Positions 55,926 to 64,000 of a DNA stretch of 64,000 nucleotides are shown here, piece by piece. The position numbers were made by a program, and so were the translations under genes. How positions within the stretch are numbered: position 1 is the first letter of the stretch; every line of letters starts with the position of its first letter. The notes under the pieces were generated by a model. That model did not search any database. It was given only the letters and a program-made list of their open reading frames with translations, and was not told the origin of the DNA. The stretch spans positions 4,131,723-4,195,722 of the forward strand of contig OY725496.1 in the NCBI GenBank assembly GCA_963281255.1, written 5' to 3'. This stretch comes from Aphrocallistes beatrix (lineage: Eukaryota; Porifera; Hexactinellida; Sceptrulophora; Aphrocallistidae).

Positions 55926-56267
55926 GATTGCATGGAGGTATATTCGATAAGCTAGAACAACAACACCCGGTCCTTATTACCTACCCACACCACACCACAC
56001 CACACCCCCGTAGCTAGTGACACTATTGTACATACTAATGGTTTATATTTTATGAATGTTTAGCTATTGATCTGTATGAAATATATTTAATACATGGACA
56101 CAATGTTATTCTATTGCTAATTCTCGAATTTCTCGACTAATTCAATTTGTAACATTGATTAGATACAAATTATTTGTACAAATACTTGTCCAACCATTTC
56201 TATTACCAACTTGTGTGAGTCTATTTGGGTATTTTCTCTGAACATTTAGGTTCTATTCTGATTCTAA
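55926..56267. other. Intergenic spacer NSMAF-EXOC5
   Basis: This is 342 bp between same-strand genes. It contains a short ACACC tandem stretch at about 55986-56006. An acceptor-like TTTAG lies 18 nt before the EXOC5 ATG. Confidence 0.5.
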
Positions 56268-59200
56268 ATGGCTACAGCTTCCATCGCATTTAAAGACTTT
56301 GAGGTAAGTACATGTATTACGCTACTTTTCTAATTAAAATTTGTTGCCATCACACCAGATATTTGTTTAATATTCTAGCAGCATCATGTGAGTCCATCCT
56401 TAGGTGTTCGTTCACACTAGAGTAGCTAAAACAAGCTGGTCGCTTCTGAAGAAGCTCGTTTTCTTCTTTCCGGGGGATTGTCAAAACACAGAGTCTGCAA
56501 TGATCTCGCATAAGCTAAGCGACTTCACTGCTTGGTCCTATGAGAACTCCCTTGACATTTTAGCCAACAGATTTCCTGATCGTATCGTCTGTCTTTGCAA
56601 ACCTTCCTTGTTCTATCTCAACTCCTTCGCGTGCTATGACGCTTTTGTTGAAAGGCTCGATAAACAGGGAACTCCTAAGCACGCTTTCTCTCTTCAGGCC
56701 TTACCTTCTCTGTCAAATTGTTTGGAACATCTCTCCGAGTCGAAGCAGATTCCTGACGGGATTGAAGATATCTCATTCGTGGGGTTCAGTAAGGGCAGCA
56801 TAGTGCTGAATCAGATCTTGTTTGAGATTCACATTGCATCTCAGAATGAAAGAATCGAGCAATTTATTTCCAAGTTTAGAGAATTCTATTGGCTAGATAG
56901 TGGTCATAACGGCACTCATGGTATTTGGATTAGCGACGAGAAACTGCTTGAATCATTTGCGAAACTAAATCCCAAAGTTTACGTGGGCACAACTCCATAC
57001 CAGATGAAGAGCGTAGCGAAACCTTGGACCGCGAAAGAGAAAGAAAAGTTTGTCGAGGGCTTGGCAAAGGCTGGAATAAAGGAAATAGAAGATGTCTCGC
57101 ATTTTGATAACGAACCAGCGTCTCTTGACAACCACTTCAAGATTTTGAAATATTTTTAATTGCACCAATTCGTATAAATGTGTGAAGTCGTTTTAGGAAA
57201 TAACTGGATTGTAAACTGATATTGTCAATTCTTAGTGCCACTCTACTTAGAATATACTTGTTATATATTAATTATTTATTCCACAAGATGTTCTTGAATA
57301 TTTGATAAAATACTTTTGGATAATTTACACATATCTATATGGATATTGGTGACTATATAACATTTAGTGCTGGACATTCGATTATTTGCTAGGGAGATTT
57401 CGACGACAAAGAGTATGTTGAGAGGTTAGCCCGAACAGACTCAGACGTGAATCTAGGTCCACTGAAGAAACCAGAAGATTTTAACCCAGAAGTAAGTTAG
57501 GAATGTGTGTAGTTATAGAGTGATCACCTGTTTTAATTCATCCTGTTAGAAACATTCATTTGATGAATCCTTTTGACATTTTCAATTCTTACATCATTCT
57601 GCAGGCGCTTCTAAGATCGTTTCAGGAGAGCATTGATCAGCTGACTCAGCTGTACAGCAAGCACCAGAAGAAAGTGGACAAGGTAGAGAAGCAGTGCTAC
57701 TTGATAGCTTTAGAGCATGAGGATAACTTGAAGAAGCAGAGAACTGTGTTTCAGGTTAGTTTGTAGTTAATTTTGCCGAGGATATTTGTCCTCGTTTCAG
57801 TATTTGCATACCACACAAAATTTGCTTAAAAGTTGAAATATTTACTTAAATAACAACTCCTTTTTCATATTTCAGTCGCTGAGTTCTAATTTTGTACAGG
57901 ACAAACTGTTTTATTTTCTTGATTTTTAAGTTCTAATCTGACTATGCAGGACTCATTCCGTACGCACGGACAGCTGGAGTCTAAGGTGAAGACGATGGCT
58001 GCCAAGGTGGTGCACCTCGGAGATCAGCTGGAAACTGCGAACCGTAAGCGCGGCAAAACGGAGGAAGCTCTCCAGCTGATCAAATACTTTAACATATTTC
58101 AGAGGAAAGAAGAAGAAGAAACTAGCTTGTTTACGGATAGGTCCAAGGTCGATATACGAATCCCACCCAATATTATTAACGCATTATCTTAAACCGAAAC
58201 ATTTAGGTTTTTGAAGCTGCCAATGTGATCCACATCCTCACCACTTTTGCTACCGATCTGCCTGATAAGTAAGCTATATATGTAGCTTAGAAGTGAACAC
58301 ATACACTCAGTATTATATTCCCTATACTTGTAGGTATGCTGAGGTCAGGAGTAGAATTGAAGGTTTGTATTAAATAATTGCATTGCGTGACAGTCAATAC
58401 CTCCTAAGAATGCTTATTCGATACTCGAATCGTATTTACAGGGAAGGCATAATTTCTGGACCCAACAAACGAACCCTTAGGAATTGATCACTTCGCGACG
58501 GGAACACGTACACCAAGGTGGCAAAGCGGCCTTCGTTCGTTCGCTTAAATAGTTTTAGTACAGCCTCAGCTTTAAGAATGTGCATTTGTACTATGCTTGA
58601 ACTGCTTTAACCACAACTCTGTTCTTCTATAGCCAAATCGAGAGAAATCGAGAGGTCTCTGCTGAAGGAGTTCTCACATGCTCACGCTCACACCGCTACC
58701 GAGCGGATGCGGGAGTGCGCCATAACTATTTCTCAGTTTCAAAAGGTTAGAATTAATGAGTTTATATTCTCTACCTGAACCCACAGCAAATATTTCCATG
58801 AGTATTATCACCAGTAACGTTATAATTTCCCTTCAATGCTTCTTCTCTTCACACTAACTATTAGCTCATGGCTTCAGGCAGTCTGTTCAACTCTACTTGA
58901 CGACAATCACTTGTGAATCTTTTCAATGCGTATTATGCACACTTTCTCTTTACAAATAGATCTGTAAACTAATTAACTAATTAACTAATTAACATGGGGT
59001 TGCTACTCGGATTGAAGAGCTTTGCAAATACGGCGAAACGGGAGTTCTGTGCTTTCTTCAGACTGTCCGTTCCCATCTACCTCACAGCTCTGTTCGCGGA
59101 GTCGATCGGTATCCTCTCTGTGGTATTCGCAGGTCAGGTTGGAGATGAGGGCGTTTCTCTGGCAGGAGTTGCTCTCTCACAGGCCATTATTAACCTTACC

Positions 59201-62200
59201 GGCTACCTTCCATTACTCGCACTCAACTCTGTAGTTGATTCACTCGTGTCTCGGTCAGACGTGGTGGGTACTAACAAGTACACTGGCCTGCTGTTACAGC
59301 GCAGTATCATAATCAACGTATACCTATCACTCCCAATTGCCTTTGTATGGTTCAACACTGAGAACATCCTCATTCTCCTCGGACAGACACCAGCTGTAGC
59401 TGCCACTGCCGGACAGTACACGCTAGTCTATATTAGTATCTTACCCGCATTCTGTCTGTATATCCCTATTATCAAGACGCTACAGCTGAATGAAGTGGTA
59501 TTACCCTCCATACTCATCCTATTCTCTGCGAACCTGCTAGAAATCGCTATAATTTTGCCTCTAGCACGCTACTCTAGCATTGGCATTGCTTCCTTCGCTA
59601 TTGGTCCGGTGTTGGCATTCTACTGCATAGCGATAGGGCACTGTGTGTATCTACGGTGCAGTAGAGTGTGGAGGCGGGTATGGAGCGGCTTCACATCGGA
59701 AGCTTGGGAAGGTTGGGCTCAGTACTTATTGCATGGACTCCCAATGCTTCTGATTGTTCTATTCGAGAATGTGACGATACAGATCGGCGGGTTTATCCTA
59801 GGTGGGATCTCACATCAACCTGTAGTCGATATCGGCATACACACAGCCATAACGTACATCAACACCCTCCTCTGTATCAGCTGCATGTCTCTCTCGCTAG
59901 CTAACTCGATCAGAATATCTCGGCATTGCATGGAAACTACTCAAAGGAGGAGAGTTAAGAGGCTAATTATCAGCGGATTCTGCGGAATGTTGATCCTAAC
60001 ACTATCCCAGTCCATCTTTCTGGCAGCGGGGCATTTTTTTCTAGGACGAATATTCTCTCGCGATACGATGGTAGTCTCGGGTCTCGGGCCGCTCCTATTC
60101 CTGCTGGCTGCTTACCATCCAGTTGAAGGTGTGTTCATTCTGTTCCAGGGGCTGCTTAAAGGACTGGAGAGACAGCATATGAACTGGTTGCTATCAAGTG
60201 TATTCTTCTGTGTCAGCCTCCCTCTGGCGATTGTGTTCGCTATCCACTTTACGGATAGACCTCTTGGTTACTGGGTGGGTGTAACGTGTGGCTATTTCAC
60301 TCGGTTCCTCTTATGTAGTCTGTTGGTTGTGATTTGTTTTACCTTACTTAAGGCTAGTTCTCATCACTCAACGGTGTCCGATATCCCCATTGAGTCCTCT
60401 CGCCTTGTTCTCACCGAGATTCCCGCTCACACAGAGATCCCATGCTACAACTCTACCATTGACCGTATTGGCAGTCTCAAATGGAAACTTGTCCTCCTCA
60501 AACTTCTACTGCTATTTATACTAGTCACTCCATTCTTCCCGTTACTCGGATGCCACTGGTCCAGGTTAAAAGTGGATTTCTACGACATGAGCTATATCCA
60601 ATCTCCGGTGGATATGTTCTGTATGCGGTTTTGGCCATCTAATTGTACATTTTCCCAGAATATCACCTTTTGTAATTAATGTATTGTTATTGAATAATTT
60701 GCAGAATTTTATGTTCATTTTCCAATGAAGAATTGATTGATTATTACTATAAGGGTTTTAGAATATGAAGATCGTATATTATTGATCAACTTATTTAGAG
60801 TTATGAGTCTTGTATCAACAATTTTATCAACGAGGGAACAAAGGTATGTTATAATGAAGTTCCACGTTGATACTAACTGATAGCGTTAGCTCATGTGTAT
60901 TGTGTAGTAATTAAGAAACCGATATAGTATATATAACTTTGCACTAGGTTGATTACAAAGGGAAAATCACACTGTTCAATCAGGTCACACAACTTTGTCA
61001 TAAGGTTAGTTCTCTTATTATAACTTAGAATTCTGTCCTTTTCCTTATCGTCTTCATTTTCGATGGCGACAGGCGACAAGAATGTTGAATACCGGGTTTG
61101 CATCCGGCGCCTAACCTGTGCTAATAATGTAGGAAGTATCACTGCCTTATTTTCATTCTTTCCCAGAATTATATTTTGTAAGGATCATTGGAAACACCAC
61201 ATAAAATATTTCTTGGATTTGAATGACATTGAAAGTAACCCCAGCTAACCAACTACCTTTTATAAGATTTAGGTATACATTTGTATGCTTATTTATATGA
61301 CAATGCACCACAAAGATCAGCTGCTAGATAGCCATGCTATTCTCTAGAAATTGACTTTGTATTTTATATTTTATCTCCAACTGTTCCCTCCTTACAATCA
61401 TTAGCTGGCAGAAATGAATGTCTTTCGTGCTCGGAATATTTATTTGTGTCACATCATAATTCCAGAATGTGTTTCAGTAAGATAATTTGTAAGAATGTGA
61501 CGTTGAGTAGGCTGTGTCATCCGAAATCCATATTCTCAAGATTGCTATGCATTCTCAATCTGAATATTTATTACTATAAAAGTGCTAGTAATTCATGACT
61601 CCTATTTCTTTCGATCAGATTTTTAGCCAAAAAACTATGTCTGCTACTACACAAGAACCGAAATCTCAAGAAGAGAGCAGCAAAGGGAGTTTCACATTCA
61701 AAGCCTCTGGCATTAAACCCAGCGGCATCTTGTACTCAAGCGAGAGCCCCCAGAACAACCGAACCTCAGATGCTGGCAAAGAAACTTATTCATTTCTAAA
61801 ACTCGACACTTCATCCAGTAATTCTTTCTCAGTAAAACCGGACTCGACTAGTGTTGAACCTGTTCCAGACAATTCCACAGAGCCGTCTCCGAAGAAAGAA
61901 CCAGCAGAATCCACGCTGAATTCTACCACTTCGAGCGAGCCGAAATCCTACGTGTTTGGTCAGAATCTAGAAGCTCGAATCGTGAAAGCGGACAGCACTC
62001 AGTCATCAAGTCAATCCGACAAGCCGCCCTCTCAACCCGAGATTCTTATCCCCAGCGAGGGCGCCAAGCCTATGAACAGCCTGCCCGTGCAGAAGGTCTT
62101 CACCGGAGAGGAAGACGAGCGAGTCATAGTAGAGATGTCCTGCAAACTGTTCATATTCGAATCTAACAATAAAAGCTGGCACAGCAAAGGTAGGAATATA

Positions 62201-63937
62201 CTTCATCTCAACGAGAATTTCGCGGAACCTCACAAGTCCAGGGTGATCTGCCGCACTCACGGCACTCAGCTCTTATTCCTCAATTCCCCGATCTGGTCTG
62301 AGATGCTGTGTGAGCTAGCCAACCCCAACTCGGTCAAGATTTCAGCTCAGATGGGAGAGGAGGGGATCCGAGTGGTCTTGATTCAGGGAGAGAAGAAAGA
62401 CACTGCTCAGCTGTACGAAGCCCTCAAGGCTCGGATTATGAACTGCACGCTGTACAAGGATAGGACCCCTACCCCCACCCCTACCTCGACACCCTCCAAA
62501 TCCCAGGAGAATGAGACGTGCGGCATAGATATACCTGTCCCTGCTTGTAGAGTAGACCCACAGGCACTCAGTACTCTTGTCCCAGAGATCAATGTAACCC
62601 CTCACACAAAACGCACTCTCTCCAGGAGAAATTCTAGCGAGGAGAGTGATGATGAAGGGGAAGTTGAAGTGACTGAAAAAACCGAGGCCGAAGAAGAGAA
62701 TTTAAACAAAAGGAGTAAATTGAGTGATTCGGTCGATCAATGAGTAAGCTAGCCCCGTGACTGCGACAGACTAGGATGCGTTCATGTTAGAACTAGCTAC
62801 AGTCGTTTCTACTTTAATTCATGACATGAGTACTCACATCTCAGCCTATTCTAAGATGCACTGATTGTATTCTAATTTATCAGAGTTCAATTACATCTTG
62901 ATGATGACCCTTTGATAGAATATACCTGTGTTACAATTACAATTATTAACCAAATCGGGGGTATTTTTTTGGAATTGATGAGCCTTCCTCTTATTTCAAA
63001 TGCAGAAGTTTCGCCTAGTTTCTACTGTCTCTCGAGTATATAAGCTTAATCTTGTTTTTAGACACAGAAAATTATCCTTGAAACATTTGACAATCCAGAG
63101 CAAGTAACGACACAGTTTGTAGCAGCTGTATTTGACAAGATTATAAAGGTAATTATTGAAACATTAATAAGCATAGCCTAATCAACAATTACACTAATTA
63201 ATTCTATTAGACGCATGTGAGAGATGAATTGAAAGATATAGACAAAGAGACTGGGATTGATGAGTACTTGACTCGACTGTCTGACCTCTATGATAAGTAA
63301 GTCAGCTGATAAGATCTAAGTTTTAATCTCTGAAATTGATCCCGAATACATTCTTAGAACGACACGCCTGGGTCTGAAACTCGTCGAGTACGAAATGATT
63401 CAAGACTTCCAAGTAGCTACCAAGCAGATCAAATCTCTATTTCATGATTACCTCCACAACTATGCAAAGTATGGCTGAGTTGTTTGTTTGTTTATTTTAT
63501 CGTGTATGCAATTCTTCAATTAAACTTGTTTAGGGAAGAGATTCAGAATTTTGGATCGAAGGGGCGTGCAGAGTTAGAGGATTTCTACAGAGCTCTGTTC
63601 GATAGCACCGGTATGCAGAAGAAAGCCACCACCACACCTAGCGGAGGGTACCGGCCTCGGAAGGAGACAATCAGAACAGTCACTGTGGATGTCCTCTTCG
63701 TCTCTCAAGATTTCATCACTAACATCCTTGCTGCCAGCAAGGAATGTGTCAATCGCTGTAAACTAGTGGGTTCATATTAAGCTCAGTACTACGTTCAGCC
63801 TATCAGCTGAGTTATCACACTGCCTTAGCTCTGCAATACACCTCAACTCTCTCCGACCATCAAAGAGCTCTACGAGATTACGATGAACTTGATTTGTAGG
63901 GACCATCTGGATTATGCTGTTGACCTCGCGTTATCAG
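56268..63937 (+). CDS. EXOC5: Exocyst complex component 5 (SEC10), 14 exons visible, 3' end outside the window; host of three nested genes
   Basis: SEC10 is a core subunit of the exocyst, which tethers secretory vesicles at the plasma membrane. Exons: 56268-56303, 57393-57491, 57605-57754, 57950-58147, 58207-58268, 58334-58362, 58633-58745, 60799-60843, 60948-61004, 63062-63148, 63211-63296, 63358-63468, 63534-63765, 63829-63937 (phase 1, continues). Phases agree throughout. The product aligns by eye with human EXOC5: KEYVERLAR, VDKVEKQCYLIALEHE, KVVHLGDQLE, LIKYFNIF, TERMRECAITISQF, the short exons with SYESCINNFIN and VTQLCHK, then TFDNPEQV, LTRLSDLYDKTTRLGLKLVEYE and ICRDHLDYAVDLALSG. Intron 1 contains the C2orf69 homolog, intron 7 (58746-60798) a MATE gene and intron 9 (61005-63061) RANBP3, all on the same strand. 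The two 45- and 57-bp exons between the nested genes are essential to the reading. Confidence 0.9.
56404..57159 (+). CDS. C2orf69: C2orf69 homolog (mitochondrial serine-hydrolase-like), nested in EXOC5 intron 1, no own ATG before the conserved core
   Basis: C2orf69 is a mitochondrial protein with a hydrolase-like fold, required for glycogen and respiratory homeostasis in humans. The open frame carries VFFFPGDCQN, WSYENSLDILANRFP, FACYDAFV, ISFVGFSKGSIVLNQILFE (with the GFSKG nucleophile-type elbow), YWLDSGHNG, VGTTPYQM and a C-terminal LDNHFKILKYF, all in family order. The frame begins at 56404, immediately after an in-frame TAG whose AG is an acceptor site. The first in-frame ATG (56500) lies inside or after the FPGD core. 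Splicing EXOC5 exon 1 (ends phase 0) to 56404 is in frame and would supply the start MATASIAFKDFE. A separate leader exon or a trans-spliced leader carrying an AUG is the alternative. Confidence 0.85.
   Translation: MFVHTRVAKTSWSLLKKLVFFFPGDCQNTESAMISHKLSDFTAWSYENSLDILANRFPDRIVCLCKPSLFYLNSFACYDAFVERLDKQGTPKHAFSLQALPSLSNCLEHLSESKQIPDGIEDISFVGFSKGSIVLNQILFEIHIASQNERIEQFISKFREFYWLDSGHNGTHGIWISDEKLLESFAKLNPKVYVGTTPYQMKSVAKPWTAKEKEKFVEGLAKAGIKEIEDVSHFDNEPASLDNHFKILKYF
58979..58993 (+). repeat. TAATTAAC tandem stretch just before the MATE start
   Basis: CTAATTAA repeats three times in tandem directly upstream of the MATE ATG. An acceptor-like CAAATAG lies about 34 nt upstream of the ATG. It may be AT-rich 5' leader sequence. 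Confidence 0.5.
58994..60679 (+). CDS. MATE-family multidrug and toxin extrusion transporter, nested in EXOC5 intron 7
   Basis: MATE/SLC47 proteins export organic cations in exchange for protons or sodium. The 561-residue single-exon protein shows 12 core helices with FFRLSVPIYLTALFAESIGILSVVFAGQVG (helices 1-2), the ALNSVVDSLVS region corresponding to the family's ALDTLCSQA loop, and QLNEVVLPSILI. A thirteenth hydrophobic segment follows the Ser/Thr-rich loop near the C-terminus, as in animal SLC47 proteins. The family's usual Glu in the second half is not obvious to me. The gene has its own ATG and stop, lies on the host strand and fills most of the intron. Its upstream acceptor leads into stop codons, so it is not an in-frame alternative exon of EXOC5. 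Confidence 0.9.
   Translation: MGLLLGLKSFANTAKREFCAFFRLSVPIYLTALFAESIGILSVVFAGQVGDEGVSLAGVALSQAIINLTGYLPLLALNSVVDSLVSRSDVVGTNKYTGLLLQRSIIINVYLSLPIAFVWFNTENILILLGQTPAVAATAGQYTLVYISILPAFCLYIPIIKTLQLNEVVLPSILILFSANLLEIAIILPLARYSSIGIASFAIGPVLAFYCIAIGHCVYLRCSRVWRRVWSGFTSEAWEGWAQYLLHGLPMLLIVLFENVTIQIGGFILGGISHQPVVDIGIHTAITYINTLLCISCMSLSLANSIRISRHCMETTQRRRVKRLIISGFCGMLILTLSQSIFLAAGHFFLGRIFSRDTMVVSGLGPLLFLLAAYHPVEGVFILFQGLLKGLERQHMNWLLSSVFFCVSLPLAIVFAIHFTDRPLGYWVGVTCGYFTRFLLCSLLVVICFTLLKASSHHSTVSDIPIESSRLVLTEIPAHTEIPCYNSTIDRIGSLKWKLVLLKLLLLFILVTPFFPLLGCHWSRLKVDFYDMSYIQSPVDMFCMRFWPSNCTFSQNITFCN
61595..62743 (+). CDS. RANBP3: Ran-binding protein 3 homolog, nested in EXOC5 intron 9
   Basis: RANBP3 is a nuclear CRM1 cofactor that binds RanGTP and promotes nuclear export. 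The 382-residue single-exon protein has a Ser/Pro-rich N-terminal half with a SFTFKAS and YVFGQNLEARI (FxFG-like) region. A Ran-binding domain follows (residues about 170-285): VIVEMSCKLFIFESNNKSWHSKG, ILHLNEN, SRVICRTHGTQLLFLNSPIW and DTAQLYEALKARI. An acidic C-terminus with an RSKL basic patch closes it. The order and the degenerate RanBD match RANBP3 rather than RANBP1 or RANBP2. The ATG at 61595 is 6 nt after a CTAG acceptor-like site. It lies wholly inside one EXOC5 intron on the host strand. Confidence 0.88.
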   Translation: MTPISFDQIFSQKTMSATTQEPKSQEESSKGSFTFKASGIKPSGILYSSESPQNNRTSDAGKETYSFLKLDTSSSNSFSVKPDSTSVEPVPDNSTEPSPKKEPAESTLNSTTSSEPKSYVFGQNLEARIVKADSTQSSSQSDKPPSQPEILIPSEGAKPMNSLPVQKVFTGEEDERVIVEMSCKLFIFESNNKSWHSKGRNILHLNENFAEPHKSRVICRTHGTQLLFLNSPIWSEMLCELANPNSVKISAQMGEEGIRVVLIQGEKKDTAQLYEALKARIMNCTLYKDRTPTPTPTSTPSKSQENETCGIDIPVPACRVDPQALSTLVPEINVTPHTKRTLSRRNSSEESDDEGEVEVTEKTEAEEENLNKRSKLSDSVDQ

Positions 63938-63966
63938 GTTAATGTTAGATATCTCTATTCGTCAAT

Positions 63967-64000
63967 ATCTTATGTATTAAAACGATAGGATTTTTAATAA
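63967..64000 (+). repeat. Dispersed-repeat fragment at the window edge
   Basis: TATTAAAACGATAGGATTTTT resembles 53017-53050 in NSMAF intron 1. It lies in an EXOC5 intron and runs off the window. Confidence 0.45.

Follow-up and report, generated by a model that had tools for sequence, protein, structure and literature searches.

Genes nested in the introns of EXOC5 in the glass sponge Aphrocallistes beatrix and a candidate start exon shared with C2orf69

The window analyzed here is a stretch of 64,000 nucleotides (C10:4131723-4195722) within a 100.5-Mb genome of 28 contigs, and its last part is occupied by the gene EXOC5, whose introns harbor other genes. A further 20 kb beyond the window edge were added to complete the EXOC5 model. 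The features are as follows, with positions counted from the first nucleotide of the window or, beyond its edge, given on C10.

56268..56303, + strand, EXOC5 exon 1 (12 codons from the ATG to a phase-0 end, with donor GAG/GTAAGT)
56404..57159, + strand, C2orf69 ORF in EXOC5 intron 1 (Pfam C2orf69, 1.4e-50)
57393..57491, + strand, EXOC5 exon 2
57605..57754, + strand, EXOC5 exon 3
57950..58147, + strand, EXOC5 exon 4
58207..58268, + strand, EXOC5 exon 5
58334..58362, + strand, EXOC5 exon 6
58633..58745, + strand, EXOC5 exon 7
58994..60679, + strand, MATE transporter, encoded by one ORF (561 aa) within EXOC5 intron 7 (Pfam MatE, 1.6e-17)
60799..60843, + strand, EXOC5 exon 8
60948..61004, + strand, EXOC5 exon 9
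61637..62743, + strand, RANBP3, single ORF in EXOC5 intron 9 (Pfam Ran_BP1, 4.4e-10)
63062..63148, + strand, EXOC5 exon 10
63211..63296, + strand, EXOC5 exon 11
63358..63468, + strand, EXOC5 exon 12
63534..63765, + strand, EXOC5 exon 13
63829..63937, + strand, EXOC5 exon 14 (the gene continues beyond the window with exons 15-21)
63938..64000, + strand, first part of EXOC5 intron 14 (whole intron 1749 nt, containing the WD40 gene)
C10:4196066-4197145 (L002:6067-7146), + strand, 359-aa ORF with WD40 repeats inside EXOC5 intron 14
C10:4197704-4198357 (L002:7705-8358), - strand, 217-aa ORF inside EXOC5 intron 15

The 14 exons that the initial annotation had assigned to EXOC5 were all recovered at their places and in frame, and a direct check of the sequence gave an open frame of 471 codons with 13 introns, all of them GT..AG. 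As a count of the whole gene the figure fell short, since the frame continues in phase into exons 15-21 past the window edge (C10:4197409-4199387), and the complete EXOC5 comprises 715 codons in 21 exons with its stop at C10:4199387. The product matches the Pfam families Sec10_HB (2.9e-32) and Sec10_N (5.6e-17). It is 75% identical to P0025, a 471-aa protein of an assembled transcript from a close relative (eukprot source), and 37, 34 and 33% identical to three other aligned animal EXOC5 proteins; the alignment with the EXOC5 of other animals extends to the C-terminus, exons 15-21 included. Fifteen of the 20 introns are short (59-270 nt), and the five long ones, introns 1, 7, 9, 14 and 15 (1089, 2053, 2057, 1749 and 888 nt), each contain exactly one other gene.

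C2orf69, MATE, RANBP3, the WD40 gene and the antisense ORF each lie wholly within one EXOC5 intron, so that five inner genes are counted where three had been named, the additional ones being the WD40 gene and the antisense ORF. The earlier description of three complete genes on the host strand is borne out as to their introns (1, 7 and 9), their strand and their Pfam families, and it fails for C2orf69, which is incomplete. MATE and RANBP3 are complete ORFs with their own ATG; a second in-frame ATG lies upstream of RANBP3 at 61595, and the start is most likely the one at 61637, which matches the start of the Oopsacas minuta model. For the 217-aa antisense ORF no Pfam family scored over the cut-off and no PDB match was obtained up to E 1; it contains GKEQTGKT, which we take to be a P-loop-like motif. 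The share of inner genes on the host strand (four of five) is not a significant excess, with P = 0.066 for the human share of 0.37 and P = 0.19 for a share of 0.5. The absence of AATAAA behind the inner genes had been remarked on and proved uninformative, because in the 250 nt past the stops of long ORFs the motif is rarer on the sense strand (18/89) than on the antisense strand (33/89). As for marks of retroposition, no notable flanking direct repeats were found in 56200-64000. An Rfam scan of the window gave no match at the gathering score. An 8-nt tandem repeat, AACTAATT, stands in 3.4 copies at 58967-58993, abutting the MATE ATG.

Among the matches listed, the closest relatives from a named species of the genes tested are proteins of O. 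minuta, and the comparison with this species covered C2orf69, MATE and RANBP3 among the five inner genes. The O. minuta protein LOD99_194 (P0008, 965 aa) begins with EXOC5 exon 1, continues through the greater part of C2orf69 and then EXOC5 exons 2-7, and ends in most of MATE, and a second protein (P0026, 556 aa) consists of RANBP3 followed by EXOC5 exons 10-14; both are assigned to a contig of 1,926,057 bases. From this order it follows that the three genes occupy matching introns in O. minuta, and together with the Pfam domain matches it indicates that the inner genes are real, beyond chance. Given that the O. minuta gene set was predicted automatically with BRAKER/Augustus and RNA-seq (PMC10280926), both proteins are most simply read as products of automatic prediction in which nested genes were fused with EXOC5; the first of them is plainly wrong in joining C2orf69 with exon 2 and exon 7 with MATE. 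The locus thereby illustrates how gene predictors fuse nested genes, and these chimeric entries would mislead searches for domain fusions. The transcript-derived protein P0025 joins EXOC5 exons 1-2, 7-8-9 and 9-10 and contains no inner-gene sequence. Judged by sequence comparison, the EXOC5 nest is real and conserved.

Two other accounts of the host gene have to be weighed against this. The locus could be an assembly error or a chimeric scaffold, an explanation that we regard as practically negligible, for in O. minuta these inner genes recur in an identical order with respect to the corresponding exons, and its arrangement together with the exon joins of P0025 argues against misassembly. The nesting and the continuous EXOC5 frame past the nested genes proposed earlier are supported both by the O. 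minuta models and by the relative's protein, and the two findings that would have spoken against it, exons 7-8-9-10 never being joined and a misassembly, are contradicted by the sequences of the relatives. Alternatively, the main EXOC5 transcript may end in intron 14 after about 471 residues, with exons 15-21 rare or a separate unit. P0025 ends in ...SLTG, and reading through the unspliced intron-14 donor yields G and then TAA in the present sequence; P0026 of O. minuta likewise reads into intron 14 (...LTGKFIHQ), no longer EXOC5 of a close relative occurs in the best 120 of 130 matches, and human hosts are described that end prematurely upstream of a nested gene (PMC3192792). Against this, exons 15-21 are in phase and align as far as the C-terminus with EXOC5 from other animals, and a lone assembled transcript may be incomplete or derive from pre-mRNA, so that we hold this alternative to be quite improbable. 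The donor in question (63937/63938) is situated shortly ahead of the WD40 gene, and a short form of EXOC5 may exist, an unspliced RNA being an equally good explanation.

The first in-frame ATG of C2orf69 (56500) lies within the conserved domain, and adding the 96 nt upstream of it raises the Pfam match from 152.3 to 172.7 bits (+20.4); the added stretch covers profile positions 31-55, and the N-terminal fragment reaches position 31, not 56. In that segment, the first Met included, 25 of 33 residues are identical to O. minuta, and in mollusc C2orf69 proteins the matching GGD segment is likewise located upstream of that Met. The reading frame is open from 56404 on, immediately behind a TTAG acceptor (56400-56403) whose TAG doubles as an in-frame stop. 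Given that EXOC5 exon 1 ends in phase 0, the join KDFE/VFVHTRVAK would be in frame, and the O. minuta model P0008 makes the same join (...KDFE/VIVHSKVAK). Four phase-0 ATG..GT starts are available in the stretch from the upstream gene's stop to the acceptor, and EXOC5 exon 1 carries the strongest donor among them (score 10.9, as compared with 7.0, 5.0 and 0.0 for the other three). The implied intron of 100 nt is within the size of the short EXOC5 introns. The acceptor at 56403 has a low score of 2.5 in a range of -8.5 to 10.4 for EXOC5 acceptors, five of 20 of which score lower, and nearby out-of-frame AGs outscore it with up to 5.6. Three close C2orf69 ORFs on other contigs (P0010-P0012) begin at the same Met, and less related entries (P0015, P0017-P0022) also show their first Met there, for which reason the shared position is weak evidence when taken alone.

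We contend that C2orf69 is most likely not an independent gene, being devoid of a usable start of its own, and that it most likely serves as an alternative last exon of EXOC5. Exon 1 would be spliced either over the 100-nt intron to the acceptor at 56403, giving C2orf69, or over the 1089-nt intron to exon 2, giving EXOC5. A single promoter and a single start codon would then serve two unrelated proteins.

MATE and RANBP3 raise a different question, as their 5' ends within the host unit would be made either by spliced-leader trans-splicing at an upstream TAG or by an intronic promoter. TAG ends 18, 34 and 10 nt before the ATG of EXOC5, MATE and RANBP3, respectively, no TAG was found within 40 nt of the first ATG for the WD40 gene and C2orf69, and 16 of the 20 acceptors in EXOC5 are TAG. 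The sites before the two inner genes are listed here.

58957..58959, + strand, acceptor-like TAG before MATE, candidate 3' splice site of modest score
61624..61626, + strand, acceptor-like TAG before the likely RANBP3 ATG, candidate

The TAG signal was evaluated over 89 long ORFs in 278 kb (C10:4131723-4409999), which were picked with a home-made score of coding potential, so that some inner exons may be among them. Within 40 nt upstream of the ATG of these ORFs, TAG occurs 108 times as compared with 53.8 expected and ranks top of the 64 trinucleotides; the excess is spread over all three frames (42, 36 and 30), and no excess was seen there for TAA (89 vs 85.0), TGA (67 vs 75.6) or CAG (44 vs 46.8). 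At least one TAG falls within these 40 nt in 68/89 ORFs, as compared with 32-40/89 in six other bins. Once one duplicate had been dropped, the figure was 67/88, and 200 dinucleotide shuffles gave a mean of 52.4 (sd 3.9, maximum 63). The base after the upstream TAG is free, as a splice acceptor would predict. The TAG excess is thus a possible sign of widespread acceptors near start codons, and it fits trans-splicing or introns near the ATG without being proof of either. For MATE and RANBP3 we infer trans-splicing as a candidate mechanism.

An acceptor matrix built from the 20 EXOC5 introns is too weak to prove acceptors before the inner genes. Its hits at 0-50 nt (sense 50/89, antisense 27/89) looked positive at first, and this excess was dropped when AG was removed from the score, which gave 56 of 89 for AG, 53 for AT and 49 for CT. 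When the matrix count was restricted to sites separated from the ATG by an in-frame stop, it likewise gave no excess, with 20/89 for AG and 7-35/89 for other dinucleotides.

A gene for a spliced leader was not found in the genome by Rfam SL1 or by two patterns of promoter and donor. With Rfam SL1 a single match came up that failed the cut-off (29.3 bits, E 0.15); it is located in a repeat-rich stretch with inverted repeats and was rejected, and 4/14 control genomes likewise gave matches. The two patterns yielded 9 matches vs 9 in the control and 32 vs 34, and a leader gene of a different build could escape them. A three-copy family in the list of 32 turned out to be a repeated frame of 67-71 codons and not a leader RNA. 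The flanks of four 5S genes revealed no common second RNA gene that could be recognized. The genes of U1 (3), U2 (4) and U5 (1), L009-L016, have in common a promoter-like element centered on CCATA near -57, from which the two patterns were derived. On C18 at 458-476 kb, the loci L046, L047 and L048 carry the three near-identical copies of this 67-71 codon frame, on both strands and behind a conserved upstream stretch, and the family has no Rfam match up to E 1.

The reading that joins a conserved nest, a C2orf69 started by EXOC5 and a MATE and RANBP3 in need of their own 5' ends appears probable to us, and within it we infer the use of the shared exon and every RNA step from the sequence. It has to be compared with other ways of starting the inner genes. 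Spliced leaders that supply an AUG are known in flatworms, and C2orf69 might begin with an AUG-ending leader of this kind joined at 56403, or else with an upstream exon of its own. A spliced leader has been reported in the glass sponge A. vastus (PMC10282587), and a two-codon candidate exon (ATGGAG/GTATAT, donor score 7.0) is present at 55932-55937. EXOC5 exon 1, however, is in the right phase and surpasses this candidate in donor score, it is the exon used in the O. minuta model, and the genome searches found no leader gene; a start of either kind is therefore rather unlikely in our view. For MATE, RANBP3 and the WD40 gene there is about an even chance that they are ordinary nested genes with intronic promoters, the TAG being incidental or a mark of 5'UTR introns. 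Such promoters are the usual description of nested genes elsewhere, and the modest scores of the acceptor matrix, the lack of an excess in the stop-filtered AG test and the WD40 gene without a nearby TAG are in line with them, but the TAG excess is general in the 278 kb, specific in comparison with TAA, TGA and CAG, and leaves the next base free. It can also be speculated that the locus is an intron-borne operon, with one promoter and one primary transcript, long cis-splices that give EXOC5, a shared start exon for C2orf69 as an alternative last exon and trans-splicing that sets MATE and RANBP3 free, which we consider unlikely. If true, same-strand nesting in glass sponges would amount to an intron-borne operon.

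To our knowledge, no functional link exists between C2orf69 and EXOC5. In this they differ from VAChT and ChAT, which belong to the same pathway; VAChT resembles C2orf69 as a single-exon ORF on the host strand, long conserved in the first intron of its host, and differs further in having its own ATG (PMC3053374). The human pair CPNE1/RBM12 is alike in that one first exon serves two unrelated proteins, one of them with its ORF in a single downstream exon. The exons shared by that pair are 5'UTR (PMC2568002), whereas the exon of EXOC5 and C2orf69 would supply both proteins with the start codon and 12 codons. Among human parallel nested genes, 22 of 53 were judged to be alternatively spliced forms of the host rather than genuine nested genes (PMC3192792), which is again similar; these cases are human loci, and C2orf69 is a conserved gene whose product is unrelated to EXOC5.

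Abundant nested genes in glass sponges have already been published. The report on Aphrocallistes vastus gives 2432 nested genes (12.4% of genes), 12,409 single-exon transcripts vs 19,578 genes, and a trans-spliced leader of about 37 bp that is carried by only 4% of long reads (PMC10282587). For the ctenophore Hormiphora californensis, the corresponding report gives 2357 nested genes in 1654 hosts, many of them parallel, and one illustrated host has four (PMC8527503). In view of these numbers, to call three nested genes in one host striking, as had been done, is an overstatement. The nests described in both animals are similar to that of EXOC5, with single-exon intronic genes, several per host and some of them parallel, and with trans-spliced leaders. 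Unlike these descriptions, the EXOC5 nest includes a C2orf69 that apparently lacks a start of its own and uses the first coding exon of the host; the passages of the two papers that were consulted describe no inner gene of this kind (PMC10282587, PMC8527503), and our literature search, supplements aside, found no report of such a shared coding start exon. The coding start exon common to host and inner gene may therefore be new. Same-strand nesting poses the puzzle of how two messages are obtained from one strand, and the EXOC5 locus sets two candidate answers side by side, namely a shared start exon, and trans-splicing or inner promoters.

Elsewhere on C10, two pairs of ORFs on the - strand were observed, one near 4279064 and 4282034 (613 codons each, stop counted) and one near 4328892 and 4331952 (435 codons each, stop counted). 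The members of each pair have near-identical upstream sequence, and both pairs are evidently recent tandem copies.
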